DNA of 64,000 nucleotides from Embleya scabrispora DSM 41855 (GTDB lineage: Bacteria; Actinomycetota; Actinomycetes; Streptomycetales; Streptomycetaceae): NCBI RefSeq assembly GCF_000372745.1, contig NZ_KB889678.1, positions 1-64,000 of the forward strand. The letters are read 5' to 3'. The notes under the pieces were generated by a model. It ran no database searches, was not told the DNA's origin, and saw only the letters and a program-made list of their open reading frames with translations. Both the position numbers and the translations under genes were made by a program. This document shows positions 19,192 through 52,248 of this stretch, one piece after another; position 1 is the stretch's first letter; every line of letters starts with the position of its first letter.

Positions 19192-19206
19192 ATCCGCAAA
19201 GTGGAT
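19192..19206. promoter_or_regulatory. LysR-type box in the SDR-operon/LysR divergent promoter
   Basis: ATCCGC-AAA-GTGGAT is an odd-length dyad of the T-N11-A form and matches five other sites in this window (21704, 23622, 24773, 42511, 52234). It lies about 60 bases upstream of the SDR start and 160 upstream of the LysR start. A second, overlapping dyad with 8-base arms (19200-19207 and 19219-19226) could be the activation site that LysR regulators use beside the recognition site. Confidence 0.6.
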
Positions 19207-19367
19207 CGGTCGGGGTCGGATCCACTGCGGTGCCGTAGGAAGGACCCGACACATTCCGGGTTCCGCACAGATCCGTGGACCCGGCCGACTCTCCGTGCCG
19301 AAGCGCCGTCGTCGCCGGCTGCGGACCGCACGGCGGCCGTCCCGGCGCGGACGACGAAGAGGGGGGT

Positions 19368-20312
19368 ATGACCGTGCAGGTTGACTGGCTGACCAGCTTC
19401 GTTGCCGTCGTCGACCACGGAGGCTTCGCGGCGGCGGCGGAAGCGATCTTCCGTGCACAGTCGCGGGTATCGGCGCACGTCGGATCTCTCGAACGGGAGT
19501 TGGGTGTGCAACTGTTCGACCGCCGTGCGCGGCCGGTGGCCCTGACGCCCTCCGGCGAGGCGTACCTGGCCTATGCCCGCGGCACGCTGACACAGCTGGA
19601 CCTCGGACGCAATGCGGTCGCCGAGGTCAACGGCCTGATCCGCGGCCAGCTCGCGGTCGCGGCGCACCCGAGCGCAGCCGCGAGCTTCCTGCCGCGGGTG
19701 ATCCGGGACTTCCGCCGCCGGTTCCCGGGCATCCACGTCGAACTCGTCGAGGAGTTCGTCCACGTCGACGAAGCGTTGCTGACCGGCCGGGTGCAGTTGG
19801 GGCTGCGCCCGCGCTACCCCGCGACCCAGGACGGACGCCTGCGGGGGGTCCCTCTGTGGAGCGAACCGATGCGCGTCGTCGTTCCCGCGCATCACGAGCT
19901 GGCGCGCGTCGGCGAGCCCGTCCGCACCGAGGACCTGGGGCTGTACGACCTCGTCGTCCCGGGCCACAACCTCGGCCAGACGGAGGCGTATCAGATGCTG
20001 CTCCAGCACGACGTCACGCCGACCGTCGCATACCTGACCAACATCCCCCAGACGCTGATCGCGCTGGTCCGCAACGACCTCGGCGTCGGGTTCACGAACT
20101 CGCTCGCCGTCGACGGCTGCGGGCACGACGGTGTGTGCGTCCTGCCCTTGGCGGACCCGGCGCTCGTGCGCGAGGTCGCTGCCGTGTTCGAGACGAGTCA
20201 GGAGTTCGCCGTCATCCGCAGCCCGTTCTGGCAGGCGATCCTCGACGCCCCGCTGCCGGCCGGCACCGTCGACCTGCGCCCGGCCCCGATCGAGGCTCCA
20301 ACTCAGCGGTGA
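19368..20312 (+). CDS. LysR-family transcriptional regulator (regulator 1)
   Basis: The 314-residue protein has the N-terminal winged helix (VDWLTSFVAVVDHGGFAAAA, then RAQSRVSAHVGSLERELGVQLFDRR) and a C-terminal ligand-binding domain starting near RGQLAVAAHPSAAASFLP. ATG 19368 follows a G-rich AGAGGGGGG site. It is divergent from the 12-gene operon across 233 bases containing the T-N11-A dyad, the usual layout for a LysR activator of its neighbour. It is a close paralogue of the regulator at 30570-31655, with nearly the same recognition helix, so both may bind the same box. Its 3' end overlaps the convergent DUF3500 gene by 10 bases. Confidence 0.92.
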   Translation: MTVQVDWLTSFVAVVDHGGFAAAAEAIFRAQSRVSAHVGSLERELGVQLFDRRARPVALTPSGEAYLAYARGTLTQLDLGRNAVAEVNGLIRGQLAVAAHPSAAASFLPRVIRDFRRRFPGIHVELVEEFVHVDEALLTGRVQLGLRPRYPATQDGRLRGVPLWSEPMRVVVPAHHELARVGEPVRTEDLGLYDLVVPGHNLGQTEAYQMLLQHDVTPTVAYLTNIPQTLIALVRNDLGVGFTNSLAVDGCGHDGVCVLPLADPALVREVAAVFETSQEFAVIRSPFWQAILDAPLPAGTVDLRPAPIEAPTQR

Positions 20313-21526
20313 TGCGCCGCGGCGTAGTGCCGGGCGAGAAGGTCCTTGCCGTAGTCGTTGCCGTTGGGCGTCCGCACGATCGTGTGGACGTGGTACGGCT
20401 GCGGCTCGGGGTTGTCGAGGAACACCCCTGAGTGGTTGTCGTACTCGATCAGGATCACGGGGCTGTGGACCCGGTAGTAGAACGGCTCACCATCACCCCA
20501 GCCGCCCATCCACAGAACGTGTGTCACGTCGAGATGGCGATCGATCTCGGCCTGCCGCGCCAGGCGTGAACCGTCCGGGAGCACTCGCAGGTAGGGCCGG
20601 ACGAGGTTGCGCAGCAACGTCCGCTGCTCGCGGTCGAGGCTGTCGCCGGAGAGCCCCTCGTAGGGCAGCACCAGGTTGTCCTGGCCGGCGCCGGCGACGT
20701 GTCGACCGTTGATGGGTCCGGCCAGATGCGGTGGCAGATCCGCGTTGCGGATCGACCGGTACGCGACCGCTCGGTCGCGCTGTGCTCCGTTCAGGGCGTC
20801 CATGAAGCGCACGCCCGCCTTGATGTGTTCGGCGAACAGTTCGTGGCCGTCGAACTCGGTCCCGAGGAAGCTGGGGGTCAGCACGACCTGACCGCCCACG
20901 ATCAAGCAATTGAGGTCGAGGTGATGCCCCATCAGCTGCCAGCCCCACGGCTCCGTCTCCGACGGTTCGCCGAAGATGGTCAACCAGTACATGTACTCCT
21001 TGAGCGTGTCCTCGTAGCCCGCACACAGCTCGCCGAGGCGGGCGTTCAGCCGCATCGCCGTCCGGATGTCGTCCATTCCGGCTGCCGACACCGTGGCGCG
21101 GACGAGGTCCATCGCCAACCCACGCCGGTCGGCGCCGAGTTCGTCGAGCAACACCCCGTGCTCCGGGAAAGTCAGAAACGCGTTGATCCAGTGCTGCCAC
21201 TCCACTGCTTCGACGGACAGGACGGCCTTCCGCCTGTGATCCGCGTCGAGACAGTCGAGCCAGGCGCGGGCCGCCCCGGCGATGACAGCCGTGGAGAGCC
21301 CCTCGTCACGCAGCCCGAAGAGGTCGGGCCGCGGTACGCCGTCTTCGGTGACCCCGACGAAAGACTGTGCCGAGGTATGGAGGACCGGGGCAGCCTCCGA
21401 CACCGCCGCGAACACCTCCGGCCCGAGCGGCATCATCGACGCGTCGATGTGGCCGCGGCGGAACGGGCGGCGGACGGGGCTCGGTCGGGCCCCTCGGTAG
21501 ACCGTCCGGTCGTCGTCTGAGGGCAT
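20303..21526 (-). CDS. DUF3500 domain protein
   Basis: The 407-residue protein matches the DUF3500 family of unknown function: a stretch ending WQHWINAFLTFPEHGVLLDELG, the mid-protein ...YWLTIFGEPS...WGWQLMGHHLDLNCLIVGGQVVLTPSFLGTE region with several His and Trp, and a late part rich in aromatic residues (VLWMGGWGDGEPFYYRVHSP, YDNHSGVFLDN) ending in PQPYHVHTIVRTPNGNDYG. There is no signal peptide. ATG 21526 follows GGAGG. A LysR-type box lies at 21704, about 180 bases upstream, placing it in the same regulon as the catabolic operon. The conserved GHH and HVH segments could bind a metal, which suggests an enzyme. Confidence 0.82.
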   Translation of the reverse strand: MPSDDDRTVYRGARPSPVRRPFRRGHIDASMMPLGPEVFAAVSEAAPVLHTSAQSFVGVTEDGVPRPDLFGLRDEGLSTAVIAGAARAWLDCLDADHRRKAVLSVEAVEWQHWINAFLTFPEHGVLLDELGADRRGLAMDLVRATVSAAGMDDIRTAMRLNARLGELCAGYEDTLKEYMYWLTIFGEPSETEPWGWQLMGHHLDLNCLIVGGQVVLTPSFLGTEFDGHELFAEHIKAGVRFMDALNGAQRDRAVAYRSIRNADLPPHLAGPINGRHVAGAGQDNLVLPYEGLSGDSLDREQRTLLRNLVRPYLRVLPDGSRLARQAEIDRHLDVTHVLWMGGWGDGEPFYYRVHSPVILIEYDNHSGVFLDNPEPQPYHVHTIVRTPNGNDYGKDLLARHYAAAHHR

Positions 21527-21703
21527 GACATTCCTCCGATCACGGTTCGGGTGACAAACAGGAGTTGTGGGCAACCGATGAACGGTCGCGACACGCCGCC
21601 CGTCCGGGGTGGTGATCCACTCGGGAGCTCGAATTCTGCGAGACCGTAACACCGGGAATCGGCCCGGCGAACCGAACCGGATCTCGAACCTCGCAGGTGA
21701 TCG

Positions 21704-21718
21704 ATCCGGATCCCGGAT
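21704..21718. promoter_or_regulatory. LysR-type box upstream of the DUF3500 gene
   Basis: ATCCGG-ATC-CCGGAT, a perfect 15-base dyad of T-N11-A form, lies 178 bases upstream of the DUF3500 start. It has the same arms as the site at 23622. Confidence 0.6.
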
Positions 21719-21775
21719 AGTGACCCAACGCCTTTGGATCCGGGGGCGCCAGTGGTGCCCTGACCGGATTGGTTC

Positions 21776-22310: not shown

Positions 22311-23489
22311 CTACCTCTTGACGAACGGGTTGAAGGCCGGTCTCTCGACGTACTGGCCGTTCACGATCTCGTTCGTGAACGTGATCGGGTTGACGATCCT
22401 CGGATAGTCCTTGAGCGGGCCGGCCTGGTCGAACGACAGCGATTCGAGCCAGTAGAACTTCATGTTCTCGACCTTGTTCATGGCACCGAGCACGCTGGCA
22501 CGAGTGATTGGCCCCTTGATGTCCTGGGCGACCTGCGCAAAGAGCTTGACCGCGAGCCAGGCGTTCAGGCCGACACCCGTGATGACCTTCTCGTCCGGCG
22601 CGTACTGGGCCATCGACTCCGAGTACGCCTTGCCGGTCGGATTGGTCGCGTTGCTGGACGGTGTACCGACGCAGACGTAGTTGCCCTCGGTGATCTTGTT
22701 GCCGGCCTGCTTGATCAGGTCGGCGGAAACCGTGGCATCGCTCATGACTGTCTTGAGGGCCGACTTGCTGGAGCTGATGGCCTGCCACAGGGCTAGGTTG
22801 GCCTGCGGAGTCATGCTCGAGACGACGACCTGCGCACCGGCATCGTCGAGCTGCGAGACGTACTGCGTGAAATCGGTCGCGTCGGCTGGGACCTCGATCT
22901 TCTTGACGATCTTGACGTCGGACGTCTTGGCACCGGCCTCGAAGTAGGAGTTGAGCGTCCCGACGGCCGGCGTCGAGATGTTCATGACGCCGATCCTGCT
23001 CGCATTGAGGTACTTCTTGGCGACCGCCGGCATGGCGGCGAAGCCAGGGACACCGGCAGACGTCGCGAAGCTCATCGGACTCCTGGCGTCGGAGTCGGAC
23101 ACCAGGGAGACACCCACGTTGGCGAGTTTGGCCGCCTCGATGATGGGATTGATCTGGTCGCCGAAGAGGCTGAGCCCGCCGACCAGAGCGACATAGTCCT
23201 TGTCCTGGGTCGCGGTCTGCGCACATTTCACCGCCGCGTTCGGATCGTTCCTCTCGTTGCACGAGGCGAGTTCGAGCCGGCGCCCCTTGATGCCGCCGGA
23301 CGCATTGATTTCCTTGACGGCCGCCTCGGCCGAGGTCTTCATGAACGGTAGCGACGTCGCAGGGGACTGCAGCTCCGAAATCTGATAAAGCTTGATCGGC
23401 CCCGCATCGGACCCTGCCTTCTTATCGCTCGAGCCGCACGCGCTCAGCGCCATCGTGACCACGACAAAAAATACCAACAATCGCTTCAT
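22311..23489 (-). CDS. Branched-chain-amino-acid-type ABC transporter substrate-binding lipoprotein
   Basis: The 392-residue protein starts with a lipoprotein signal (KRLLVFFVVVTMALSAC) with the lipobox LSAC and modified Cys18, so it is anchored outside the membrane. The mature part has the LivJ/LivK-like fold: AEAAVKEINASGGIKGRRLELASCNERNDPNAAV, GGLSLFGDQINPIIEAA, and a C-terminal half ending near NPFVKR. Such proteins in catabolic clusters often bind aromatic or other organic acids rather than amino acids. ATG 23489 follows AAGGAGAC. It is transcribed away from its permease/ATPase genes, and a LysR-type box lies at 23622. Confidence 0.9.
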   Translation of the reverse strand: MKRLLVFFVVVTMALSACGSSDKKAGSDAGPIKLYQISELQSPATSLPFMKTSAEAAVKEINASGGIKGRRLELASCNERNDPNAAVKCAQTATQDKDYVALVGGLSLFGDQINPIIEAAKLANVGVSLVSDSDARSPMSFATSAGVPGFAAMPAVAKKYLNASRIGVMNISTPAVGTLNSYFEAGAKTSDVKIVKKIEVPADATDFTQYVSQLDDAGAQVVVSSMTPQANLALWQAISSSKSALKTVMSDATVSADLIKQAGNKITEGNYVCVGTPSSNATNPTGKAYSESMAQYAPDEKVITGVGLNAWLAVKLFAQVAQDIKGPITRASVLGAMNKVENMKFYWLESLSFDQAGPLKDYPRIVNPITFTNEIVNGQYVERPAFNPFVKR

Positions 23490-24189
23490 GCTGTCTCCTT
23501 GTGGAATCCGAACGAGCCCGAACTCGATCCCTGGGATCGTGTGACTCAGATCACGGCGACGTCCACGAAAGCGTGTCTCAAGACGGGCCGGTCGGTCCAT
23601 GCCGAAAAGGCGACCTCGCTGATCCGGAAACCGGATAGGCAGAACACGTCGTGAAAGCTGTCGACAGGCGCTCACTTCGAGCGCGGCGGTAGATCCGCCG
23701 CGTAAGCGACGCACACAGCGCACCGATGGTGCGGGGTGTCGCGGCGGATGCGGCCAGAGCAGGCAAAATCGAGCCTGACGTCATCTTGACGACGGCGGCG
23801 ACCGGCCCACACTCGGCAACCGGGCAGATAAGTAGAGCCCGTTCTGGATACTCGACAACGAGTTGACTGAGTAGTGAGAGAAACCAGATCCAGAATAAAC
23901 GTCGTTCGGTTAGGGCCTGCGGAGAAACAAATCGTAGCTTCCGTCGTGGCTGGTCGTTGTTGCGTCATGGGATGTCGGAAGAAACCGAGGCGGTGCGGCG
24001 GCAAAGTTCGAGGCGTTGTTTTCCGCATCCGGACGAGCACCGGCGCCGGTTGGCCACAGGAGCGCAGGCCCGGCCGCCGGGTCATGGCGGATCAGGAAGG
24101 TGACCGTGCGGCCGGGGTACACGAGGGCACCGTCTCCCACAGGGTCGCTGAACCGGAATCCGGTGCGGCTCCGTGGGGCCGTGTACATA
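23490..24189. other. Long promoter-bearing gap between the binding-protein gene and an insertion-sequence remnant
   Basis: Besides the LysR-type box at 23622, a second odd dyad CGATCC-CTG-GGATCG lies at 23525-23539, 36 bases before the substrate-binding protein start, where it could be an operator. The rest, to 24189, holds only shadow frames. Confidence 0.4.
23622..23636. promoter_or_regulatory. LysR-type box upstream of the substrate-binding protein gene
   Basis: ATCCGG-AAA-CCGGAT is the cleanest copy of the island's shared dyad, T-N11-A in form, 133 bases upstream of the ATG at 23489. Confidence 0.62.
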
Positions 24190-24756
24190 GGGAAGGCGGA
24201 GGCCGCAAGCGCACGGTGAATCTCGATCCTGGACTGCGGTCCGCTCTGCCGGCCCCCGTGGAGCCGGATATGCGCGGCGACCCGAAGTCGCCGCTGCGCT
24301 GGACGACGAAGTCGACCCGTCATCTGCCCGGCGAGCCGACCGGACAGGGCCACCGCGTCTCGGCGGAGACCGTGGCCGACCTGCTGCGTGAGGAAGGCTT
24401 TAGCCTTCAGGGCAACGCCAAAACCGCCGAGGGCAGGCAACACCCGGACTGTGAAGGCCAGTTCCGCTACATCAACGAGCGGGCCCGGGACCACCAAGCC
24501 GCCGGGGACCCGGTGGTCGGCGTCGACACGAAAAAGGAGGAAGTGGTCGGCAACTACAAGAACACCGGCAGCGAGTGGCACCCTGCGGGCGAGCCGGCCC
24601 GGGTTGCGGATCTGCGGCTTCCCGGACCCGGAGCCGGGCAAGGACATCAGGGCCCTCCCCGTCGCGGAGAGCCGCGCGATCGGCTTCGCGCACGACGCTC
24701 CGGAGCAGATCGCGCATTGCGGCCTCCGCTCGTTGCTCGGCCTCGACGACGGCTGA
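24190..24756 (+). pseudogene. Decayed internal fragment of an ISAzo13-family transposase
   Basis: The frame from about 24190 reads GGGRKRTVNLDPGLRSAL, GDPKSPLRWTTKSTRHLPGE, VSAETVADLLREEGFSLQGN, HPDCEGQFRYIN and then VGVDTKKEEVVGNYKNTGSE, all signature segments of ISAzo13 transposases in the right order. Near 24600-24620 the frame is lost; FPDPEPGKDIRALP in another frame continues it. The N-terminus and the C-terminal catalytic part are missing. It lies between the divergent transporter genes. Confidence 0.75.
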
Positions 24757-24772
24757 GCCCGCACATCCGTTG

Positions 24773-24787
24773 ATCCGTTTTCCGTAT
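24773..24787. promoter_or_regulatory. Degenerate LysR-type box upstream of the permease fusion gene
   Basis: ATCCGT-TTT-CCGTAT matches the shared dyad with reduced arm symmetry (4 of 6 paired positions), 164 bases upstream of the GTG at 24951. It is weak on its own; position and spacing support it. Confidence 0.35.
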
Positions 24788-24950: not shown

Positions 24951-27662
24951 GTGGAGGACATCGCGTACTACGGCCTTATCGGGCTCGGCCCTGGTGCCAT
25001 GCTCGGCCTGCTGGCGCTCGGGCTCGTGTTGGTCTATCGCGGAACGGGTGTCCTCAACCTGGCGCACACCTCGCAGGCCGCGCTCGGAGCCTACATGTAT
25101 GCGTACTTCAGCAACTCGATGGGGATCCCCCTGGCACTCTCCCTGCTCGCCGCCGTCCTCTGTGCCGGCCTGTCCGGTGTCCTTATCCAGCTACTGGTCA
25201 TGCGCCCGCTGCGCCTGGCCTCACCGTTGACACAGCTCATCGCATCAACGGGAGTGCTCCTCGTGATCCAGGCGGGACTGCTGCTCGCCTTCACGAGCGA
25301 CGCGCAGAGCGTCAAGTCCCTCCTGCCGACGGCCCCTCTCGATCTGTGGGACGGCCGATCGATCGGTCGGGACCGCCTGCTGCTCGTAGTCGTCGCGATC
25401 GTTGTGACGACGATCTTGTGGGCGATCTTCCGCTACAGCAGGTACGGGGCGATCACCGCCGCGGTGGCCGAGAATCCGATCGCTGGGCAGACGCTCGGGC
25501 ACGACCCTGGACGTATCGCGATCGGCAGCTGGTTCCTCGGCGGTGCGTTGGCAGGCTTGGCCGGATCTCTCCTCGCACCTCTGAGTGGTCTGAATCTCGT
25601 GGCCTTCCTCAGCCTCCTCGTCCCGGTGCTCGCCGCCGCACTGGGCGGCGGTCTCGTGTCCTTCCCGCTGACGATCGTCGGCGGCATCGGGATCGGTGTC
25701 GCGCAGTCCGAGGCGACGGTGCACACCGACGTCCGCGGCGCCGGAACGATCGCGACGTTCGCACTCCTGGTCCTCCTGATGCTGTTGCGCGGCCGCGCGA
25801 TCCCCTCGCGTGGCTTCGTCGGCACCCGGATGCCCTCCTTGGGAGACGGCCGGATCCGTTGGGCGCTGGTCCTGCCGACCCTCGCGGTCACGATCCTGCT
25901 TGTGTGGGTCGTCCTGCCCGTGGAGTGGAACTTCGCCTTGCTGACGAGCCTGCTCGTGGCGATCCCGATGCTGTCTGTCGTGGTCGTCACCGGATATGCG
26001 GGACAGGTTTCGCTCGCCCCGTTCGCACTCGCGGGTGTCGGCGCGGTCGTCGCGTCCGAACTCGCCCACGACCACCCCGGGATCCCGTTCCTGCTGCTGC
26101 TGCTGATCGGCGGAATCTGCGCGATCCCGTTCGGCTTCGTCCTCGCCTTCACCGCGAGACGTATGCGAGGGGCAAGTCTCGGGATCATCACGCTGGGGTT
26201 CAGCGTCCTGCTCTATGCGACGGTCTTCAGCCGCAGCGATCTCGTGACGGTGCCGAGCCCGACGATCCTCGGCCTGGATCTCACGCCGATCATCGATCCC
26301 CGTCGCTATCTGACGGTTGTCATCTTGGTGTTCGTGATCTTCGGTCTGCTCGTAGCCAACCTCCGTCGTTCCCAAGGTGGACGCCGGTTGATCGCGGTGC
26401 GAGGCAACGAGCGTGCGGCAGCGTCGATCGGTATCAACGTCAACGGTGCCAAGACCACGGCATTCGTGATCTCGGCCTTCATCGCGGCTGTCGGCGGAGT
26501 GTTGCTGGCCTTCCGGTCCACCGCCGTCGTCTACGGCAACTTCGACCCGTTGTCGTCGATCAGCCAGCTTGGCTGGACGGTCATCGGTGGGCTCGGCTGG
26601 ATCATCGGTCCGCTCGTCGGCATGACGTTCGCGAGTGGAGGTGTCGGCAACCAGGTCGTCGCCTCGGCCTACAACGACCAGTTCGCGTGGCTGCCGATGG
26701 TCGGTGGCGTGGTGCTGCTCGTCACGATCCTGCTCAACCCTGATGGAATCGTGTCGGTCAACGTCTCGCTGGTCCGCCGTCTGGCCACTCGTCGCCGGCG
26801 CAATGCGCCGGCGCGGATCCCCGAGCCGGCGACACCACGATTGCAGCGCGGCACACGGACACGTCGGGCCCTGACCCTGACCGACGTCAGGATGTCGTTC
26901 GGCGCGGTGCACGTACTCAAAGGCGTGTCGCTCACGGTCGAGCCCGGCACGGTGCACGGGCTGATCGGGCCGAATGGGGCGGGCAAGACGACGCTCCTCG
27001 ACGTCATCAGCGGCTTTGCGCACCCGCAGAGCGGGCAGGTCTGCCTCGGCAACGACTCACTGCGGCGGATGCCAACCTGGAAGCGGTCGCGACTCGGGAT
27101 CGGCCGGTCGTTCCAGAGCCTTGAGCTGTTCGATGACCTCGACGTCTACGACAACATCCGGGCGGCGTCGGAGATCAACCGTCGAGACCGTGTGGTCCGC
27201 GAACTGATCCGGCCGCAGGAGGTTTCCTTGAGCCCAGCCGGCTGGGAGGCCGTGCGCCTCCTCGAACTCGACGGTGTTCTCGACCGCCGCATTGAGGAGC
27301 TCTCCTACGGCAAACGGCATCTCGTGGCGATCGCCCGGGCACTCGCCACCGACTCGGACATCGTGCTGCTCGACGAACCGGCCGCGGGTCTGGACGAGGT
27401 CGAGACTGCGGAACTGCGTACGCTCATCCGCCGGATCGCCGAGCAGAGCGGCGTTGGTGTCCTGCTGATCGAGCACGACGTGGAACTGGTCATGGATGTC
27501 AGCGATGTCGTGACCGCCCTCAACTTCGGCGAGGTGATAGCCAGCGGTGCACCGAGCGAGGTCCGGAAAGCCCCGGAGGTCATCGCGTCCTATCTCGGCG
27601 AAGAGATCGAGAGCGTAGGCAGTGCGGATCTGACAGCCGGCACGCACGGAGGTGTCCTGTGA
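24951..27662 (+). CDS. Fused LivH-LivM-LivG ABC transporter (two permeases plus ATPase in one chain)
   Basis: This 903-residue protein joins three subunits that are usually separate. Residues 1-285 are a LivH-like permease (GLVLVYRGTGVLNLAHTSQA, LALGLV-type helices). Residues about 290-610 are a LivM-like permease (GYAGQVSLAPFALAGVGAVV, RGNERAAASIGINVNGAKTTAF). Residues about 640-903 are a LivG-like ATPase with Walker A GPNGAGKTT near 673, a signature reading LSYGKRHLVAIARAL and Walker B IVLLDEPAAGLD near 803. GTG 24951 follows GGAGGAG. The gene overlaps the LivF gene (GTGA). It should import the ligand delivered by the lipoprotein encoded divergently. Confidence 0.93.
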   Translation: MEDIAYYGLIGLGPGAMLGLLALGLVLVYRGTGVLNLAHTSQAALGAYMYAYFSNSMGIPLALSLLAAVLCAGLSGVLIQLLVMRPLRLASPLTQLIASTGVLLVIQAGLLLAFTSDAQSVKSLLPTAPLDLWDGRSIGRDRLLLVVVAIVVTTILWAIFRYSRYGAITAAVAENPIAGQTLGHDPGRIAIGSWFLGGALAGLAGSLLAPLSGLNLVAFLSLLVPVLAAALGGGLVSFPLTIVGGIGIGVAQSEATVHTDVRGAGTIATFALLVLLMLLRGRAIPSRGFVGTRMPSLGDGRIRWALVLPTLAVTILLVWVVLPVEWNFALLTSLLVAIPMLSVVVVTGYAGQVSLAPFALAGVGAVVASELAHDHPGIPFLLLLLIGGICAIPFGFVLAFTARRMRGASLGIITLGFSVLLYATVFSRSDLVTVPSPTILGLDLTPIIDPRRYLTVVILVFVIFGLLVANLRRSQGGRRLIAVRGNERAAASIGINVNGAKTTAFVISAFIAAVGGVLLAFRSTAVVYGNFDPLSSISQLGWTVIGGLGWIIGPLVGMTFASGGVGNQVVASAYNDQFAWLPMVGGVVLLVTILLNPDGIVSVNVSLVRRLATRRRRNAPARIPEPATPRLQRGTRTRRALTLTDVRMSFGAVHVLKGVSLTVEPGTVHGLIGPNGAGKTTLLDVISGFAHPQSGQVCLGNDSLRRMPTWKRSRLGIGRSFQSLELFDDLDVYDNIRAASEINRRDRVVRELIRPQEVSLSPAGWEAVRLLELDGVLDRRIEELSYGKRHLVAIARALATDSDIVLLDEPAAGLDEVETAELRTLIRRIAEQSGVGVLLIEHDVELVMDVSDVVTALNFGEVIASGAPSEVRKAPEVIASYLGEEIESVGSADLTAGTHGGVL

Positions 27663-28387: not shown

Positions 28388-28429
28388 TCGCCGGAAGGTT
28401 GTCGTTCACTCACCGATGCCGCGCCGCTG

Positions 28430-29290
28430 ACCGGCGAGCGCGCCGGCGGTCTGGACGGACTGCTGGACTTCGACGCGCAACTGCGCTCGTCGAGGCTCGC
28501 CGGTTGGGGACCGGGTCAGTGCAGGCGTCGCCCAACAGTGTGGGCGGCGAGGTGGAGAAGCTGTTGTTCCTGCGCGACCTGGACGCGCGCACACCCCGGA
28601 CCTGTCCGCGCTGCCGCCGAACGGCGCCGTTTCCTGGCCCAGGTCGGGCGGCGTCCGACCTGGGCAGGCGCTCGTGCGGCGCGAGCACACCCGGCGCCAC
28701 GTGATCCTGCTCACGCTGCCAGCCCAGTTCTCGGTCGACGTCATGGACTCCGTGGTGCAGCTCTTCGACCAGACGCTGTCGGGCTCGGAGTCGCGGGACC
28801 GGATCAAGCTGCGCGACGAGTTCGCCGAGCGGGCTCAAGCTCTCCGGGGAGCGGCTTGCCCTACTGGACGAGATCCTGCCCGTCCCGGCCGACGCCGGGA
28901 TCCAGGACGAGGCGGTGAGCACGCTGCCGCGCGGGAAGATCGGCAGGTCCCGGTTGATCGCCGCAGGCGCCGGGCCACGGTGCGGCTCCCGCGCGAGCGC
29001 TCACATCTGCGGCTGTTGGAAGGCTCCTACGCTACATCCGCCAGTTCGCTCCGAAGGCGCTGCAAGAAGGGCGGCACCGAGGCACAGCCGCTGGTCGAGG
29101 CTCTGGAGATCCTGCGGGAGCTGAACGCCATCGGCGCCGGCAACGTCGCCGACGGCGCCCCGACGCTGTTCGTCCCAAACCGCTGGCAGGGCTACCTCGA
29201 CGAGGCCGCGCCAAGGGGGACGCGACCGCCTACCGGCACTACCTGGAGCTGTGCACGCTGCTCGACGACCTGCGCTCGGGGGACATCTTC
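28430..29290 (+). pseudogene. Decayed Tn3-family transposase fragment
   Basis: Pieces in shifting frames follow the order of Tn3 transposases: GGEVEKLLFLRDLDA, QALVRREHTRRHVILLTLPA, VDVMDSVVQLFDQTLSGSES, LSGERLALLDEILPVPAD, then EAQPLVEALEILRELNAIGA, APTLFVPNRWQGYLDEA and AYRHYLELCTLLDDLRSGDI. At least four frameshifts break it, and both the N-terminal DNA-binding part and the C-terminal DDE core are missing. Confidence 0.75.
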
Positions 29291-29314
29291 GTGCCCGCCC
29301 GGCAGAACCCTCGT

Positions 29315-30080
29315 CCTCACCGAGGCCCGGATCGAGGGCCCGGTGACGTTCGAGGAGGAGACCGGCACCTCCAGACGCCTCCACCCGTTCCAGCGGCCGA
29401 AGTTCGGCGAACTGCTCGCTTACGCACGGCCCGGCGGCATTGTGCACATCTCCGAGATGTTCCGCCTCGTACGAAGCACCCGACACCTCCTCGACGTGCT
29501 CGACGTCCTGCGCCAGGGCCGCCTCCCCCGCGTAGCCGCGACGGCGCGTTCCCCGCCATGGACCTCACCGCCCACCACCCACGCTCCGGAGAACCGCTGT
29601 CCACCGTGAAGTTCATGGCACAGACCCTTGCCGCAGCCGGCGACCTGCGGCGCGACCTCCGGCAGGAGCTGACGTACGACGGGCTGCGGGCCGCCGTGGC
29701 CAAGGGCAACAAGGGCGGACGCCGCCCAGCCATCACGTCCGAGGACATCAGCGACGTACGCGCCGCCTATCCGGAAGGTCGGTCGATCGCCGCCCTGGTC
29801 GGCGAACACGGCGTCAGCCGCAGCGCCGTCCGCACGGCCGTCGCCGACCTGATGCCCAAGCACACCCCGCGGCCGACCCCACGAGGATCTCGCGCCCCCG
29901 GAACTGCCGATCACCCTCTACATGCCAGGCATGGTCGCGGCTTCCTCCGCGCCGCCGAACTGGAGCCCGTCGTGCGCGCCGCACTCGACCAGCGCGTGGC
30001 CGTACTGCGCGGCCGGGGCTACACCGTCCGCGTCCCCGGCACACCCGCCGTCCCCCGGCACTGTTTGGCCGCCACTTGCC
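29315..30080 (+). pseudogene. Decayed serine recombinase (resolvase) linked to the Tn3 remnant
   Basis: Fragments read LTEARIEGPVTFEEETGTSR, FQRPKFGELLAYARPGGIVH, ISEMFRLVRSTRHLLDVLDV, then after a shift STVKFMAQTLAAAGDLRRDL, ELTYDGLRAAVAKGNKGGRR and SIAALVGEHGVSRSAVRTAV, which is the C-terminal helix-turn-helix. A tail near GFLRAAELEPVVRAALDQRV follows, as in Streptomyces recombinases of this type. The N-terminal catalytic Ser region is not visible. From 30080 to 30569 only unrecognisable sequence follows. Confidence 0.7.
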
Positions 30081-30569
30081 CACCCAAAACGGGGCTCAGC
30101 ACTGCGGAGAGCGTGGGCGTGCCGACCTCGTCATCAGGTGCCGGGGTCAACCCCCACAACCAGGCAGACCCTGTTCGCGCAGCCCCGCACTACGCAGGCC
30201 ACGTCGCGTGGCTGGGCGGAGTTAGCCCTGGCGATCTCGGAGATCGTGAGCGCGGTCCTGCGCCTTGTCCACCAAGCGGTAATCGAGAACGCCGCCGCGG
30301 ATGGTCCCGGGTCGCGTCCGCCCTGATCTGCGATGCCGCATTCACGGTCCGCCCGCACATCGGGGCCGGCTCGGCCAAGACCGCCGAGGACTCGCGTCGG
30401 CTGCGCTAGGCGCCGCACATGGCAGGACCGGCGGCTCCGGCTCGGGCGGGCCGAGACACGCGTGCGAGGGATCCAGGACACGGCACGGTTCGGGCCGGGT
30501 CTCCGGCCGGACGACGAGATCGTCTTCGGTCTCCACCGAGTCAGCGGCCGATCGACGGCGAACGGCAGC

Positions 30570-31655
30570 TCAGCCGGAGGCGAGTACAGCGCTCGGTGCA
30601 TCGCACGCCGGCAGGCGGACGGGGCGGAACTCTTGGGCAGTCCGGGTCCGCTGCGCCACCCGGTCGCGGTCTCCCCCGCCGTCGACGAGCCGGGGAGTGG
30701 GCGTTGGCGTGGCCGCCGTACCGTCACCCTCCGTGGACGACATCGGCCTCCGCACATCGACGGTTCCCCGCGGCAGTCGGCAGCGCATCAAAACCTTCCA
30801 GAACGGGTTCGGGGTGATCAGGGCGACCTGGCTGGCCTCGCAGACCACCGACACCTCCCGGATCATCGTGGCGTCCCCGAGCGGCAGGACGCGAACCCCT
30901 TCGGTGGTGCCGTTCGCCACGGCGAGCTCGTTGGTGAGCCCGACTCCGAGGTCGCTGCGCACGAGAGCGATCAGCGTCTGCGGAACGTTCGTCAGATAGG
31001 TGATCCGTGCGGTGATCCCGCGCTGCGCGAGCAGTTGCTCGGCCTCTGTCTGACCCGCGCCCGAGCCCGGGACGACCAGGTCGTAATTCGCCAGGTCCGC
31101 GGCGTCGACCGCCGAACCCCGCAGGGCGAGCGGATGCTGCGGATGGACGACCACACGCATCGGCTCGCGCCACAGCGCCACGCGGTGCAGACGGCGATCG
31201 CCGGACAACGGGTACAGCGGCCTCAGCCCCACCTGCACCCGACCGGTGAGCAGCGCGTCGTCGACCTGGGCCAGCTCCTCGATCAGATCGATGTGGATGC
31301 CCGGGTAGCGGCGTCCGAACTCCTGGATGACCTGCGGGAGGAAGGTCGCGGCAGCGCACGGGTCGGCCGCCACGGCAACGTGTCCGCGCGCGAGCTGGTT
31401 GACCTCCGCGACGGCATTGCGTCCGAGCTCGAGCTGGCCCAGCATCGCCCGCGCGTGGGTCAGGTAGGCTTCGCCGGCCGGGGTCAGCGCGACAGGGCGT
31501 GACCGCCGGTCGAACAGTTGCACCCTGAGTTCGCGCTCGAGCGCGCTGATGTGCGCGGACACTCGCGACTGGGCCCGGAACGTTCCGTTCGCGGCGGCGG
31601 CGAACCCGCCGTGGTCGACGACTGCCGTGAAGCTCACCAACCAATCAACCTGCAC
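30570..31655 (-). CDS. LysR-family transcriptional regulator (regulator 2)
   Basis: The 361-residue protein is a close paralogue of regulator 1: QVDWLVSFTAVVDHGGFAAAA, RAQSRVSAHISALERELRVQLFDRR, AAATFLPQVIQEFGRRYPGI and ITYLTNVPQTLIALVRSDLGVG are nearly the same at matching places. It is longer only at the C-terminus, where about 60 residues after VDVRRP look like read-through into unrelated sequence next to the Tn3 remains. GTG 31655 follows GAGAGGAA. It has no divergent partner gene of its own. It may share the LysR-type boxes with regulator 1 but respond to another ligand. Confidence 0.9.
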   Translation of the reverse strand: MQVDWLVSFTAVVDHGGFAAAANGTFRAQSRVSAHISALERELRVQLFDRRSRPVALTPAGEAYLTHARAMLGQLELGRNAVAEVNQLARGHVAVAADPCAAATFLPQVIQEFGRRYPGIHIDLIEELAQVDDALLTGRVQVGLRPLYPLSGDRRLHRVALWREPMRVVVHPQHPLALRGSAVDAADLANYDLVVPGSGAGQTEAEQLLAQRGITARITYLTNVPQTLIALVRSDLGVGLTNELAVANGTTEGVRVLPLGDATMIREVSVVCEASQVALITPNPFWKVLMRCRLPRGTVDVRRPMSSTEGDGTAATPTPTPRLVDGGGDRDRVAQRTRTAQEFRPVRLPACDAPSAVLASG

Positions 31656-32220
31656 GACTGTTCCTCTCCGCCCGCGAGTTCACTTCGCCGTCGCCTGCAA
31701 CCACGGCAGTTCGTCCTCGGGACCCGGACTGCTCACCGAGACGCCGATCACCACCGGCGGCTCGTTGGAGTCGGTCATACCCCGAGCGTCCCGCCGGGCC
31801 GTCGGCAACGGCCGAGCCCGGATCGCTCGCACTCGGGAAGGTCGAGCCCGACTTGCTGCTGTAGGAAGCCGGAGTGCCCGGCACGACGGCTGCCGGCGGC
31901 GGGGCCACGAGCCGTATCCCTCTTCGCATCTTGACTCCTGGTGCCGACGGGAGTGGGACGCGAACCGCCGGCTCGACAAATACGGTCGGAACGGTCGCGG
32001 TCTCGATGGGTTCGCACAGACGCGCGTGCTGCTGCGACGCCGGATGTCCTCGTCGGGTCTGCGCACGACGGGTATTGCCCTTACCTCACTAATAAGAACT
32101 AGGTTCTACTTAGCGAAGATACACCGCAACCGGCTCCTGTCAAGAGGCGCGCGCGCAAACTGCCGGACACGGGGACCGCCCTAAAGGAAAAGGGGTGCGA
32201 AACGGTCCGGAAGAAAAGCG
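31656..32220. other. Gap with a regulatory dyad but no clear gene
   Basis: A short minus-strand frame (31778 down to 31680, TDSNEPPVVIGVSVSSPGPE) looks protein-like but has no ribosome binding site and may be a remnant. The AGAAC-N3-GTTCT dyad lies at 32094-32108. Nothing else is recognisable. Confidence 0.4.
32094..32108. promoter_or_regulatory. AGAAC-N3-GTTCT dyad (possible TetR operator), copy 1
   Basis: AAGAAC-TAG-GTTCTA pairs 5 of 6 arm bases and matches the sites at 38167 and 52917. The nearest complete gene it could control is regulator 2, over 400 bases away on the minus strand, so its target is unclear. The region is unusually AT-rich for this window. Confidence 0.5.
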
Positions 32221-38166: not shown

Positions 38167-38181
38167 TAGAACTCGGTTCTA
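38167..38181. promoter_or_regulatory. AGAAC-N3-GTTCT dyad (possible TetR operator), copy 2
   Basis: TAGAAC-TCG-GTTCTA is a perfect dyad with six-base arms, 87 bases upstream of the P450 start at 38080 and the only obvious control site in that gap. It resembles the KstR consensus TnnAACnnGTTnnA but with one extra central base. Confidence 0.6.
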
Positions 38182-41571: not shown

Positions 41572-42411
41572 TCAGCCGATGAGCGCCCGTCCTCGATCGA
41601 TCACGGCGTTCCCGGCCGAGTCCGTCGTCCGGAACCGCGCCGTCTCGCCGTCGACCCAGATGCTGACCGTGAGGGTCTCCCCCGGCACGATGGGCTTGGT
41701 GAAGCGTCCCGACATCGACCGGAACCTCTTCGGATCGGAGTCGGCCGCCGTGTGCAGCAGGGCTCGTCCCGTGTACCCGTAGGTGCACATGCCGTGCAGG
41801 ATCGGCCGCTCGAACCCACCGCGCGAGCTGAACGACGGGTCGGTGTGCAGCGGGTTGCGGTCGCCGGTGAGGCGGTACAGCAGCGCCTGGTCGGACCGGG
41901 TCGCATAGATGACGACGTGGTCGGGTGCCCGGGTCGGCAATTCCCACGACGACGACGGTCCTCGGTCCCCGCCGAAGCCCCCGTACCCGCGGAAGAACAC
42001 CGACGTGCGCAGCGTCGCCGCCAGTGAACCGGCGTCATCGTGCGCAGTGGTGACCGTCTCGACGAGCGCACCCGATCCCTTGTCGTACACGCCCGCGATC
42101 TCGCACCGGGAGTTGACAGCCCCGCTCGTCGCCAAGGTGCCCGCGAGTTCGAAGGCCTGCTCGGCGTGCAGCATCTTGGTCATGTCGACGTCGTCGGGCA
42201 GCGGGAGCTCGACACCCAGGGCCACGTTCGCGAATGTCGGCAGGACCAACTGCTCGTGGCCGCAGGTGTTCTCGGTCGTGAACGCGAGCTCGCTCAACGG
42301 ATTGATCTGTCCGGCTCCGACCGAGATCGCGTAGAGCATCGCGTCGTCGGCGGTCCAGCTCCGTCGCACGGCGGGACCACTACGGCCCACCAGCGATTCG
42401 TCAATCGGCAT
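41572..42411 (-). CDS. MaoC-type (hydratase-2) enoyl-CoA hydratase
   Basis: The 279-residue protein is a full-length double-hotdog hydratase: an N-terminal non-catalytic half (AISVGAGQINPLSELAF, LPTFANVALG) and a C-terminal half with the hydratase-2 motif LTGDRNPLHTDP...GGFERPILHGMCTYG, whose Asp and His are catalytic. It should add water to a trans-2-enoyl-CoA to give the (3R)-hydroxyacyl-CoA for the SDR encoded next. ATG 42411 follows GGGAGGA. It is divergent from the DUF35/thiolase pair across 255 bases holding a weak LysR-type box at 42511. Confidence 0.92.
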   Translation of the reverse strand: MPIDESLVGRSGPAVRRSWTADDAMLYAISVGAGQINPLSELAFTTENTCGHEQLVLPTFANVALGVELPLPDDVDMTKMLHAEQAFELAGTLATSGAVNSRCEIAGVYDKGSGALVETVTTAHDDAGSLAATLRTSVFFRGYGGFGGDRGPSSSWELPTRAPDHVVIYATRSDQALLYRLTGDRNPLHTDPSFSSRGGFERPILHGMCTYGYTGRALLHTAADSDPKRFRSMSGRFTKPIVPGETLTVSIWVDGETARFRTTDSAGNAVIDRGRALIG

Positions 42412-42510: not shown

Positions 42511-42525
42511 AACCGTTCTCCGGAT
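42511..42525. promoter_or_regulatory. Degenerate LysR-type box in the MaoC/DUF35 divergent promoter
   Basis: AACCGT-TCT-CCGGAT keeps one perfect arm of the shared dyad and 4 of 6 positions in the other. It sits centrally between two divergent operons. Weak alone, stronger given the other copies. Confidence 0.35.
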
Positions 42526-42666: not shown

Positions 42667-43077
42667 ATGTCTGGCTTCGAGCCGACCCCGACGCCGGAGA
42701 CGGCGCCGTATTGGGACGCCGCCGCGCGCGGCGATCTGTCGGTGCAGTTCTGTTTGCAGTGCGCGCGCCACTACTTCTACCCCCGACCCGCGTGCCCCCG
42801 GTGCGGCGGCGAAAGTGTGGAATGGCGAACCGTCGCCGGGCGCGCGAGGCTCGTCTCCTACGTCATCAACCATCGCCCCCTGCCGCCGTTCGACGCGACG
42901 GTGCCGCAGATCGTCGCGCTCGTCGAGTTGGACGAGGGGCCGCGCATGATGACCGCCATCGTCGGCGTCGAGCCCGCACCCGAGCATTTGCCTCTGGATC
43001 TTGCGCTCGAGGTGGCGTTCGTCGACTGCGGCGACGTCCGGCTCCCCGTGTTCAAGCCGATGGCGGTCGCGGCATGA
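42667..43077 (+). CDS. Zinc-ribbon/OB-fold (DUF35) protein, partner of the thiolase-like protein
   Basis: The 136-residue protein has the DUF35 layout: an N-terminal helix (TAPYWDAAARGDLSVQFC), a rubredoxin-like zinc ribbon with CLQCARHYFYPRPACPRCGG giving two CxxC pairs, then an OB-fold (WRTVAGRARLVSYVINHRPL). ATG 42667 follows GAGAGGA; a TTG codon directly before it is in frame. The gene overlaps the thiolase gene (ATGA). In steroid side-chain pathways a DUF35 protein binds and activates an SCPx-like thiolase-fold aldolase, which is the likely arrangement here. Confidence 0.9.
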   Translation: MSGFEPTPTPETAPYWDAAARGDLSVQFCLQCARHYFYPRPACPRCGGESVEWRTVAGRARLVSYVINHRPLPPFDATVPQIVALVELDEGPRMMTAIVGVEPAPEHLPLDLALEVAFVDCGDVRLPVFKPMAVAA

Positions 43078-44237
43078 GCGCGACCTCGATGCACGGTGGC
43101 CGGGTGGCGATCGTCGGCGCTTCGGAGACCGACACCATCGGGAAGCGCCCCGACGCCTCGGTGCTCGGCCTGCACGCGGAGGCCGCGCGCAACGCGCTGC
43201 GCGACGCGGGCCTGACGATTTCCGACGTCGACGGGATCGCCACCGCCGGCATCTATCCGCAAGACATCTCCCACTACCTCGGCATCACCCCGCGATGGCT
43301 CGACGGCACGCTTGTCGGCGGTTGCAGTTTCCTCCTGCACGTCCGGCACGCGGCGGCGGCGATCGCCGCCGGTGCGGCCGACGTCGTGCTGGTGACGCAC
43401 GGCGAGTCCGGTCGATCCGGCGTCGGTGCGGACCCGTGGATCCGCAACCCGGCGGCAATCAGCGGCCAGTTCGAACAGCCTTACGGCGCCCAGGCCCCGT
43501 ACTCGACGTTCACCGTTCCGGCGCTCCGCTTCCTGCACGACCGGGGAATGACCGTCGAACACCTGGCCCACGTCGCGGTCGCCCAGCGCACCTGGGCCGT
43601 CGACAATCCCCGCGCGGCTCGGCGCGACCCGGTCACCGTCGCCGACGTCCTGGGCGGTCCGACCATCGCCTACCCGTTCACCCGCGACATGTGCTGCGTG
43701 GTCACCGACGGCGGCGGAGCGCTCGTACTCACCAGCGCCGAACGAGCACGTGACCTGCCGTCGACGAACCGAGCCGTGTACCTCCTCGGATCGGGCGAGT
43801 CCGCGGAATCGTCGATCGTCTCACAGATGGCCGATCCGGGGTCGTTCGCGGCATTTCGGCACGCGAGCGCGGAGGCCTTCCGAACAGCGGGACTCACGCA
43901 CGCGGACATCGATCACTTCATGGCCTACGACGCGTTCGCGCACCTCCCGCTGTACGCGCTCGAGGACGCCGGGTTCGTCGGACGCGGTGAGTCCGGTGAC
44001 TTCGTCGCCGAGGGGAACACCGTCAAGGGCGGACGCCTGCCGGTGAACACCAACGGCGGCGGGCTCTCCTACACGCACTCCGGCATGTACGGCATGTACG
44101 CCATCCAGGAGGCGGTTCGACAGCTCCGCGGCGAGGCACACGCACAGGTTCCGGGCGTGGATGTCAGCTTCGTACTCGGCGTGGGCATGTTCTTCGCGGC
44201 CGCCGGCAGCCTGGTGCTCGCGCGCCACCCGGCCTGA
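43074..44237 (+). CDS. Thiolase-superfamily protein of the SCPx/Ltp2 type (thiolase or retro-aldolase)
   Basis: The 387-residue protein has the thiolase fold: VGGCSFLLHVRHAAAAIAAG, TDGGGALVLTSAER, MAYDAFAHLPLYALED, VNTNGGGLSYTHSGMYGMYA and AVRQLRGEAHA. True SCPx thiolases usually have HDAF and GHPxGATG where this one has YDAF and THSGMYG, and those variants are seen in the lipid-transfer-protein aldolases that cleave side chains with a DUF35 partner. So retro-aldol cleavage of a beta-hydroxyacyl-CoA is at least as likely as thiolysis. The start codon overlaps the DUF35 gene. A hairpin follows at 44241. Confidence 0.85.
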   Translation: MSATSMHGGRVAIVGASETDTIGKRPDASVLGLHAEAARNALRDAGLTISDVDGIATAGIYPQDISHYLGITPRWLDGTLVGGCSFLLHVRHAAAAIAAGAADVVLVTHGESGRSGVGADPWIRNPAAISGQFEQPYGAQAPYSTFTVPALRFLHDRGMTVEHLAHVAVAQRTWAVDNPRAARRDPVTVADVLGGPTIAYPFTRDMCCVVTDGGGALVLTSAERARDLPSTNRAVYLLGSGESAESSIVSQMADPGSFAAFRHASAEAFRTAGLTHADIDHFMAYDAFAHLPLYALEDAGFVGRGESGDFVAEGNTVKGGRLPVNTNGGGLSYTHSGMYGMYAIQEAVRQLRGEAHAQVPGVDVSFVLGVGMFFAAAGSLVLARHPA

Positions 44238-44269: not shown

Positions 44270-44416
44270 TGGGAAGATCGGGTCGGCGGGGTGTACGGCT
44301 CCGCTATCGTGAATGTGCCGGGTTCGGGCGACAGTCGGCGGGCCGCCGAGCAAGAAACACCGGTCGCCACGGATACCATGCACCGACAGTGCGTGGCGAA
44401 GGACTTCGGAGTGACG

Positions 44417-45070
44417 ATGTCAGCGATTCGAACCACCGGGCGCACACCTGCGGCGCAAGCCTTCCGCGCCAACCAGGTGATCGAGACGGCACGTCAGCTC
44501 GCGTCCGAAGGCGGCTACGAGGCGGTCCAGATGCGCGAGGTCGCCAAGCGCGCTCGCGTCGCGCTCGCCACGCTCTATCGCTACTACCCCTCGAAGGACG
44601 ATCTCATCCGGGCCTTCGTCGACACGGACGTGCAGCTGCTGCGCGACGACGTCATCGCGCGGCCGCCGCACGACTCGACGCCCAACGCGCGGGCGGCGAC
44701 GGTGTTCATCCGGGCCTTCCGCGCGATGACCCGCGATCGCGGTTTCGCGCAGGCCGCGATGAGCATTCACCACTCGCCGCGCCCGCTCGGGCTCGGCCGC
44801 GGCCCGGTCGCGGAGCCACTGCGGAACTCCTTCGTCGACATCGCGGCGCTCGCAGCCTGGGGACCGGACCACGAGACCACGGCCGACGAGTACCTCGCCC
44901 TGCACGTGCTCGAGTCGTTGCTCAACAGCAGCGTGCTCAGTTGGCTCGATGGTGCCATGACTGCGGAGTACGTCGAGGAACGGCTGGCGTTCGCCGGAAC
45001 CCGGATGCTCACTTCCGAGATGCCGGCCCAACCCGCAGATGTGAAGACGGGAACCCGCCGGGTCCGATAG
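44417..45070 (+). CDS. TetR-family regulator resembling KstR
   Basis: The 217-residue protein has the TetR DNA-binding domain (VIETARQLASEGGYEAVQMR, EVAKRARVALATLYRYYPSK, DDLIRAF) and an all-helical ligand domain. The Q-M-R-E-V-A-K-R-A-R-V-A-L-A-T-L-Y-R-Y-Y-P-S-K helix-turn-helix is close to that of KstR, the repressor of actinobacterial sterol catabolism, whose operator is an AAC-GTT dyad released by acyl-CoA ligands. ATG 44417 is preceded by GGAG; GTG 44411 in frame is an alternative. It is the natural candidate to bind the AGAAC-N3-GTTCT sites in this window. Confidence 0.9.
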   Translation: MSAIRTTGRTPAAQAFRANQVIETARQLASEGGYEAVQMREVAKRARVALATLYRYYPSKDDLIRAFVDTDVQLLRDDVIARPPHDSTPNARAATVFIRAFRAMTRDRGFAQAAMSIHHSPRPLGLGRGPVAEPLRNSFVDIAALAAWGPDHETTADEYLALHVLESLLNSSVLSWLDGAMTAEYVEERLAFAGTRMLTSEMPAQPADVKTGTRRVR

Positions 45071-50554: not shown

Positions 50555-50636
50555 GTCCTCCGCTCCTTTCGAGTGTGCCGGCGAAAACATGGCGCGGCGG
50601 ACTGCTGATGATCGGCTGACGCGGACGCGGAGTCGG

Positions 50637-50861
50637 TCAGGGCGCAGCCTCTACCAGGGTGATCGCCAGCGTCGGGCACATGTCAGACGCTTCCTGGAGC
50701 TGCTCGCGCTGCGATTCGTCCAGGGCCGGCGACACATAGCGGTCCGTGGATTCGGAGCGAAAGGCAAGCAGTCCCTGGTCATCCAGGCTGAACACCTCGG
50801 GAGCGGAAAACATGCATTGCCCGTGATTGTTGCATCTCTTGAGGTCGACTTCGATTCTCAT
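50637..50861 (-). CDS. 3Fe-4S-type ferredoxin (second P450 partner)
   Basis: The 74-residue protein has Cys10 and Cys16 in CNNHGQC and Cys62 in MCPTLAI, with His13 where a fourth Cys would be, giving a probable 3Fe-4S cluster (His at this place is known in P450 ferredoxins). ATG 50861 follows GGGAGAG; ATG 50873 in frame is an alternative. It lies 30 bases after the P450 gene. No reductase is next to it. Confidence 0.92.
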   Translation of the reverse strand: MRIEVDLKRCNNHGQCMFSAPEVFSLDDQGLLAFRSESTDRYVSPALDESQREQLQEASDMCPTLAITLVEAAP

Positions 50862-50891
50862 TCGCTCTCCCATTTGGCTGCAGATGCGGAA

Positions 50892-52118
50892 TCATGTCGC
50901 TGCGAATCGAAGCGGAAGGGCGGACAATCTGTTGACACCAACGAAAGGCAGCGTACGCACATCGTCCAGAGGAATAGCGGAACGAATGTCGCGCAGCCGC
51001 TCGAACAATACCTCGAATGCTATCCTGGCCTCGGCACGGGCGAGGTTTACCCCGAGACAGAAGTGGACGCCGTGGCCGAATGCCATGTGGGCGGAAGTGT
51101 CGCGATGGATGTCGAAGGTCGCCGATTCCGGGAAGTAGGCTTCGTCTCGGTTGGCCGATGTCCACAGCGGGCGCACCGTCGCACCGACCGGAATCACCGT
51201 GCCGCTCATCTCCACAGGCCGACCGACGATCGTACGTCGAGTCCAGCGCGCCGGTGAGACCAGCCGTACCGACTCCTCGAGCATGGCCGGGATCAGGTTT
51301 CGATCGGCGAGCACCTCCTCGAACTGGCTTCGGTGACTCAGCAGCAACCTCATCGTGCCCGAGATCCAGCTCGCAGTCGTCTCGTTGCCGGCAGTGAGGA
51401 AGACTCGGATGAGATCGAGAATCTCCGGCCGGTCCAAAGGCCGCTCGCCACCGACCCGGGCTGCCAGCAGCGCCGAAATCAGGTCGTCGCCGGGCGCCTG
51501 CTCCCGCTTCTCGATCTCGTTCGCGAAGAACTTCTGGAAGTCGATCACATGGTGCTGGATTTCCAGCATCCGCTCCCGGGAGAGGATTTCTCTTCCCTGG
51601 ATGGAGTCCACGAAGTCGTCCGCCCACCCCATGAATCGATCCTGTTCGCCGCGTGCCAGACCCAAGGCGTCTGCGATGATGTATCCGGGCACCAGGCTGG
51701 CGAACTCGCTGACGAACTCCACGCTGCCGCGCTCGACGAACCCGTCGATCAGGTCGTGGACGATCCGCCTCATGCTCGGCTCCAGCGCTCGGACCGCCTT
51801 GGGGCTGAAGGCCTGGTTCACGAGCTTGCGGTACCGGGTGTGGATCGGCGGGTCCGTCATCGTGAGAGTGGGGACCTGCGGGTAGCCGGACGCCTGGATC
51901 TCCTCGAGTTCGGAATCACCGGCCCCAAAGAACGGGCGATCGCTTGAGAATGTCAGCGGGTCACGCATGGCCGCCTTGACATCGTCATAGCGGGCCAGCA
52001 TGTAAGTGTCCATCGCTTCCACGTAGGACACCGGGCAGCGTTTCCGCATTTCTTCGAATACGGGCTCGGGATGAGCGATGGCGTCCTCGGACGTGAGGTC
52101 GTACTCGTTCGGATGCAT
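50892..52118 (-). CDS. Cytochrome P450 (second system)
   Basis: The 408-residue P450 has LTMTDPPIHTRYRKLVNQAF, the I-helix VFLTAGNETTASWIS, the ExxR pair in LEESVRLVSP and the haem loop MAFGHGVHFCLGVNLAR with Cys354. It differs clearly from the first P450 and is more like bacterial CYPs acting on terpenes or acids. ATG 52118 is preceded by GAAGAGGGA; the frame is open to 52172. A LysR-type box lies at 52234, 116 bases upstream, so the P450-ferredoxin-dehydrogenase-kinase-SDR operon is likely under the LysR regulators. Confidence 0.93.
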   Translation of the reverse strand: MHPNEYDLTSEDAIAHPEPVFEEMRKRCPVSYVEAMDTYMLARYDDVKAAMRDPLTFSSDRPFFGAGDSELEEIQASGYPQVPTLTMTDPPIHTRYRKLVNQAFSPKAVRALEPSMRRIVHDLIDGFVERGSVEFVSEFASLVPGYIIADALGLARGEQDRFMGWADDFVDSIQGREILSRERMLEIQHHVIDFQKFFANEIEKREQAPGDDLISALLAARVGGERPLDRPEILDLIRVFLTAGNETTASWISGTMRLLLSHRSQFEEVLADRNLIPAMLEESVRLVSPARWTRRTIVGRPVEMSGTVIPVGATVRPLWTSANRDEAYFPESATFDIHRDTSAHMAFGHGVHFCLGVNLARAEARIAFEVLFERLRDIRSAIPLDDVRTLPFVGVNRLSALPLRFAAT

Positions 52119-52233
52119 GAACTGTCCCTCTTCTTTGAAGACGCTCTCGGCGTCTTTTCGGGAGCCCGTCAAAAAATATCAGGCGGACGGTTCCAGCCCC
52201 AGGCCGGAGCTGCTCGATTTCCGGCGATTCGCA

Positions 52234-52248
52234 ATCCGCTTTCCGGAT
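52234..52248. promoter_or_regulatory. LysR-type box upstream of the second P450 operon
   Basis: ATCCGC-TTT-CCGGAT (5 of 6 paired positions; T-N11-A form) lies 116 bases upstream of the second P450 start. It places this operon in the same putative regulon as the one 33 kb away. Confidence 0.58.

Follow-up and report, generated by a model that had tools for sequence, protein, structure and literature searches.

The dyad ATCCG-N5-CGGAT (15 bp, 10 specified bases; hereafter the box), which stands in front of several operons of a catabolic island in Embleya scabrispora DSM 41855, is very probably a real control site that marks an operator regulon of the island, and its form and setting make it likely to be the recognition site of the island LysR-type regulators LysR1 (19368..20312, plus strand) and LysR2 (30570..31658, minus strand). 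The window (the whole stretch of DNA that was analysed, 64,000 nucleotides) covers positions 1 to 64,000 of contig NZ_KB889678.1, and window sites are given as positions on that contig. An earlier note on this DNA had proposed one operator shared by several island operons, and this is well supported by the enrichment of the box in the island and by two conserved orthologous promoters. Among the genomes searched, the catabolic island was found in a single further one, G653, which belongs to the Nonomuraea thailandensis family. The box is probably half of a two-regulator system; the second regulator, of the TetR family (44411..45070, plus strand), and a second dyad were absent from the earlier note.

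Box sites and their enrichment in the window

The six dyads of the earlier note were present at 19192, 21704, 23622, 24773, 42511 and 52234, and all six lie in non-coding gaps when gene starts are set by hand for gap assignment (among them those of the DUF3500, binding-protein, permease/ATPase, MaoC and second P450 genes). The specified bases showed no mismatch at 21704, 23622 and 52234, and one mismatch at 19192, 24773 and 42511. The box at 19192..19206 (minus strand) occupies the gap that divides the minus-strand SDR-led operon from LysR1 on the plus strand; its minus-strand reading is ATCCACTTTGCGGAT-AG, 57 bp before the SDR start codon and 11 bp from GTTCTTCG, and the SDR gene itself is at 18370..19134 (minus strand). 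The remaining boxes are on the plus strand. The exact palindrome at 21704..21718 is about 177 bp upstream of the DUF3500 gene (20303..21526, minus strand), that at 23622..23636 about 132 bp upstream of the periplasmic binding protein gene (22311..23489, minus strand), and the copy with one mismatch at 24773..24787 about 163 bp upstream of a branched-chain-type ABC permease/ATPase fusion (24951..27662, plus strand). The box at 42511..42525, with one mismatch, lies in the divergent promoter between a MaoC-type hydratase gene (41572..42411, minus strand) and the DUF35 and thiolase/lipid-transfer-type genes (42667..44237, plus strand), and the exact box at 52234..52248 is about 115 bp upstream of the second P450 gene (50892..52118, minus strand). 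A GGATAG continuation in a single orientation was seen at four of the six boxes, those at 21704, 23622 and 42511 and, on the minus strand, the one at 19192; TTT or AAA often forms the centre of the spacer.

Exact dyads were also found within coding sequence at 20738-20752, inside the DUF3500 gene, and at 57127-57141, both probably by chance, together with a coding copy with one mismatch at 14110. Since exact dyads occur inside genes, perfection alone proves little. With each box left out of the matrix in turn, the six ranked 8 (19192), 5 (21704), 1 (23622), 7 (24773), 8 (42511) and 2 (52234) among 63,986 window positions, and the sole other positions that outranked any of them were 20738 and 57127, the two exact dyads in coding sequence. 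In about 12.1 kb of gaps, counted without the first 6 kb of the window, there were 6 boxes with no more than one mismatch, where 300 simulation runs gave 0.72 on average and never more than 4; exact boxes numbered 3 against 0.033. Across the 11.39-Mb genome, ATCCGSNNNCCGGAT was found at 13 distinct places, 3 of them in the window (0.06 expected from the outside density, P ~3e-5). The pattern ATCCGNNNNNCGGATAG with at most one mismatch was found at 59 distinct places, 6 of them in the window (0.30 expected, P ~8e-7); this window count takes in the coding dyad at 20738 and leaves out 24773, and the P value is optimistic because the pattern was derived from these very sites. Exact ATCCGNNNNNCGGATAG occurred at 3 places in 11.39 Mb, 2 of which are in the window, 21704 among them. 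An unbiased scan of 5-base arms over the whole window was swamped by coding bias and was uninformative. The within-window statistics are good, not overwhelming, and alone would not settle the operator status of the box; conservation decides.

The genome-wide count of coding against promoter copies, on which the earlier note had placed weight, gave 29 coding and 9 non-coding among 38 outside-window rows with a locus (some places twice; 32 further rows had no locus), and was made with a crude caller that extends starts and overcalls coding, so that 5 of 5 window rows were also called coding. A large genome-wide promoter regulon was rejected on these mostly coding outside rows. A few box-like dyads with one mismatch, apparently non-coding and in front of non-island genes, were seen at L020, L040 and L041 (own genome, C2, C108, C111); these may be chance or further targets.

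Conservation of the box in other genomes

Both LysR proteins carry an N-terminal HTH_1 and a C-terminal LysR_substrate domain above the curated Pfam cutoffs (for LysR1 on the longer open reading frame (ORF) 19275-20312). They had been described as near-identical, and the comparison corrects this to 64% identity. With LysR1 as query, 12 of 394 class genomes matched at 1e-50 (own genome included), 1 of 297 own-family genomes, the window's own alone, at 1e-60, and 4 of 341 genomes of the N. thailandensis family at 1e-55, G653 among them. The LysR of G653 has 69% identity to LysR1 and 79% to LysR2. Of 33 window proteins queried, 24 had a match of at least 35% identity in the 147-178 kb stretch of G653, with best matches of 61-86% (HtaA, 46%); the SDR heading the 19192 operon has an orthologue 72% identical. 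The nine without such a match were the binding protein, two importer genes, three genes behind the second P450 (SDR, APH and acyl-CoA-dehydrogenase) and three flanking genes.

A matrix derived solely from the six window sites was run over 120 kb of G653. Its two best scores, at 177438 (15.1) and 151340 (14.5), fell in the gaps orthologous to those of 19192 and 42511, and the third (13.2, at 189249) fell outside the matched stretch. The MaoC/DUF35 gap is 51% identical overall to its G653 counterpart, and its most conserved 30 columns, 27 of them identical against a median of 15, hold the box. In the SDR-operon gap both genomes have GTTCTTCG 11 bp away from the box, whose distance to the SDR start is 57 bp in the window and 59 bp in G653. 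The comparison of gaps with a related genome, put forward in the earlier note, thus found the box kept at two orthologous promoters.

Copies of the box were also found before or near LysR relatives elsewhere. N. thailandensis L054 has an exact ATCCGGTTTCCGGAT 107 bp before a binding-protein gene that heads an ABC importer and SDR run leading to a LysR gene (46% identity), and exact ATCCGGNNNCCGGATNG has just one further place in the 13.8 Mb of that genome. G805 has the same exact ATCCGGTTTCCGGAT at the same distance (about 4.9 kb) from its LysR homologue. In G944, ATCCGTCTTCCGAAT lies 63 bp before a LysR start, divergent from an MFS gene; among 109 LysR upstream rows, in which some genes appear twice, it scored highest, at 14.4 against 9.7 for the runner-up. 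A possible second ATCCG half-site was noted by eye just downstream of the box in this LysR-MFS divergent promoter (L209:1184-1420). The helix-turn-helix letters FRAQSR(V/I)SAH are common to LysR1, LysR2 and the LysRs of G653, L054 and G805, while the G944 LysR helix reads HRSQPRVSMH. A literature search found no paper that combines most of the terms for the box arms and the LysR operator palindrome, but LysR and both arm strings occur together somewhere in a number of papers, and the box is therefore not claimed to be unpublished.

The second dyad and the choice of regulator

The second dyad, TAGAAC-N3-GTTCTA, is exact at 38167..38181 (minus strand), 86 bp upstream of the first P450 gene (36806..38080, minus strand). 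Copies with one mismatch are at 32094..32108 (minus strand), 435 bp upstream of LysR2, and at 52917..52931 (plus strand), which shares its gap with the 52234 box and lies 10 bp before a GAF/SpoIIE ORF, the PAS/GAF/SpoIIE phosphatase gene at 52942-55134. No further copies with at most two mismatches were found in the window, and with at most one mismatch the dyad has 5 places in the 11.4-Mb genome, 3 of them in the window. G653 has the dyad, with one mismatch each, before the orthologous first P450 gene and in the HtaA-LysR gap. By eye, the dyad upstream of LysR follows within about 10 bases after TTGACA-N16-TATCTT in the window and TTGACT-N16-TAGAGT in G653. The best solved relatives of the island TetR are KstR (E ~5e-15); it scored 78 bits against the KstR equivalog model, below the cutoff of 280, and is not filed as KstR. 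Its G653 orthologue is 70% identical, and no match was found at 1e-35 in the other 393 of the 394 class genomes drawn. The published KstR motif is TnnAACnnGTTnnA (PMC1995591). Because the TetR is KstR-like and this motif resembles the second dyad, we pair the second dyad with the TetR and the box with the LysRs as the likelier arrangement. The KstR-type form TnnAAC-N2-GTTnnA was found neither in the window nor in the 40 kb of G653 scanned, and the sites found have a spacer of 3.

The LysR assignment of the box, taken over from the earlier note, is probable but indirect. The TetR, which has a better-fitting dyad in TAGAAC-N3-GTTCTA, is the sole further regulator found in the island. The T-N11-A form is present in 9 of 11 instances (six in the window, two in G653, and those of L054, G805 and G944), and PMC12609908 states that most LysR-type regulators recognise T-n11-A. 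The box stands before or near LysR genes in L054, G805 and G944, and the placement usual for a LysR box, upstream of targets and in a divergent LysR promoter, was found at 19192 (SDR operon/LysR1) and in G944 (LysR/MFS). The centre of a LysR box falls near position -65 relative to the start of transcription, and an activation half-site follows downstream; the centre of the 19192 box precedes the SDR start codon by about 64 bp, which matches this position only if the message is leaderless.

Several observations weigh against this assignment or against the reach of the regulon. The left T is missing at 42511 and its G653 orthologue, the best conserved pair. Window scans found no box just upstream of LysR2, and none was found in the 300 bp before the G653 LysR2 orthologue, the L054 LysR or the G805 LysR; no clear activation half-site was found by eye. 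Four of the six window boxes have no orthologous copy for comparison, and one box arm has decayed at G653 177438. No importer-gene relatives of at least 35% identity were found in the G653 stretch, and no box was found there in front of the second P450 or DUF3500, both of which follow LysR, downstream of the second dyad; the window boxes before these two genes may have been acquired after rearrangement. L054 and G805 count once, because their surrounding DNA is near-identical and of the same lineage, and an IclR gene lies near the L054 box. No exact box was found near LysR homologues of 38-44% identity with other helices (L055/L135, L134/L176, L056), where copies with one mismatch in about 20 kb numbered one each in L055 and L056 and none in L176. 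An unbiased scan of the gaps with all 5-base arms and spacers left ATCCG-N5 outside the top 15 listed; TATCC-N7 (19191, 21703, 23621) came sixth with 1.9e-5, where the best value reached in 40 simulations was 4.7e-5. The idea that a box precedes every LysR of the subgroup was ruled out by the boxless LysR2, G653, L054 and G805 upstream regions. Because the left T is missing at the best conserved pair, and LysR2 and its orthologue have no box of their own, the LysR assignment is held at likely.

Three other explanations of the box were considered. In the first, it would be the operator of the island TetR, controlling the genes before TetR, and the LysRs would read the second dyad upstream of LysR2. 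This would place each regulator behind its own operator in both genomes (the 42511 box before DUF35-thiolase-TetR, the 32094 dyad before LysR2) and would agree with the missing left T, but it is unlikely: it is the second dyad, not the box, that has the half-sites of the KstR motif, and copies of the box accompany LysR relatives in L054, G805 and G944, where tblastn at E 1e-3 found no TetR relative in the stretches searched. Nor was a second dyad found in G805 and G944 (at most two mismatches) or L054 (exact inner arms only), and the dyad before LysR2, just downstream of TTGACA-N16-TATCTT, appears by eye to be in a repressor's place. A regulator coded outside the window, for example of the IclR type, is an improbable binder too. 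IclR proteins also bind short dyads and an IclR gene is near the L054 box; against this, no IclR gene was found among the window ORFs scanned, the G944 box lies in a LysR divergent promoter, and the outside-window rows are mostly coding (29 of 38), which makes a regulator with many genome-wide targets unlikely.

That the boxes are chance or compositional palindromes of a 69% G+C genome is very improbable. It would account for the exact copies in coding sequence (20738, 57127) and elsewhere in the genome, and for the lead of composition-driven palindromes over the box in the unbiased scans. It does not fit the box kept at two orthologous G653 promoters, or the copies that three more genomes (two of them from one lineage) have in front of LysR relatives or in their vicinity.

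With the box taken as a LysR operator, a consensus of about ATCCGN-TTT-CCGGAT, often followed by AG, would be the recognition site of LysR1 and LysR2. A LysR protein would grip both arms upstream of each operon and, with a pathway inducer, would activate the SDR/FAA-hydrolase, MaoC and DUF35-thiolase operons, the second P450, DUF3500 and the ABC importer, while the KstR-like TetR would repress the first P450 operon and LysR2; here we infer binding, activation, the inducer and the reading of the same box by both LysRs. Offered tentatively, the island could be a transferable unit with a crossed two-regulator circuit. A KstR-like repressor on a widened 15-bp operator would control the first P450 operon and LysR2, LysR on the boxes would control the CoA-thioester operons, including one leading towards the repressor gene, and moved or added genes of the window genome (second P450, DUF3500, ABC importer, LysR1) would also have taken on the box. 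About 170 bp separate the thiolase from the TetR gene that follows it, in the window as in G653; TetR therefore possibly has its own promoter, for which reason the crossed wiring is a conjecture.

Island genes and comparison with known systems

The nearest relatives of the first P450 are CYP268A2, CYP125 and CYP124, and those of the thiolase are 4u4e and 6ok1, the latter a lipid-transfer protein. These relatives suggest a branched lipid, isoprenoid or steroid-like substrate for the island. The stretches 23900-24770 and 28400-30500 around the ABC importer are gene-poor and remnant-like; 24388-24756, without a Pfam or NCBIfam match, resembles by eye a transposase piece, and 28674-29609 has a weak resolvase match.

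The box gives an uncharacterised LysR subgroup a specific, testable candidate operator and suggests which operons of an uncharacterised catabolic pathway are switched together. The box and the second dyad present a conserved two-regulator arrangement, and growth of the regulon after gene rearrangement is traceable between two genomes.

Both systems probably belong to known kinds and are ordinary in kind. Compared with the KstR operator of mycobacterial sterol catabolism, the second dyad has fitting half-sites (TAGAAC, GTTCTA) and a KstR-like TetR is present, whereas the spacer is 3 bases against 2 and the TetR falls below the KstR cutoff. The solved sequences closest to LysR1 include BenM. Like the T-N11-A boxes of the BenM and CbnR type, the island box is a 15-bp imperfect dyad that lies upstream of catabolic operons and also within a divergent LysR promoter; it differs from them in its G+C-rich arms, in its six copies over 33 kb, in having no clear activation half-site and in the missing left T of its best conserved pair.

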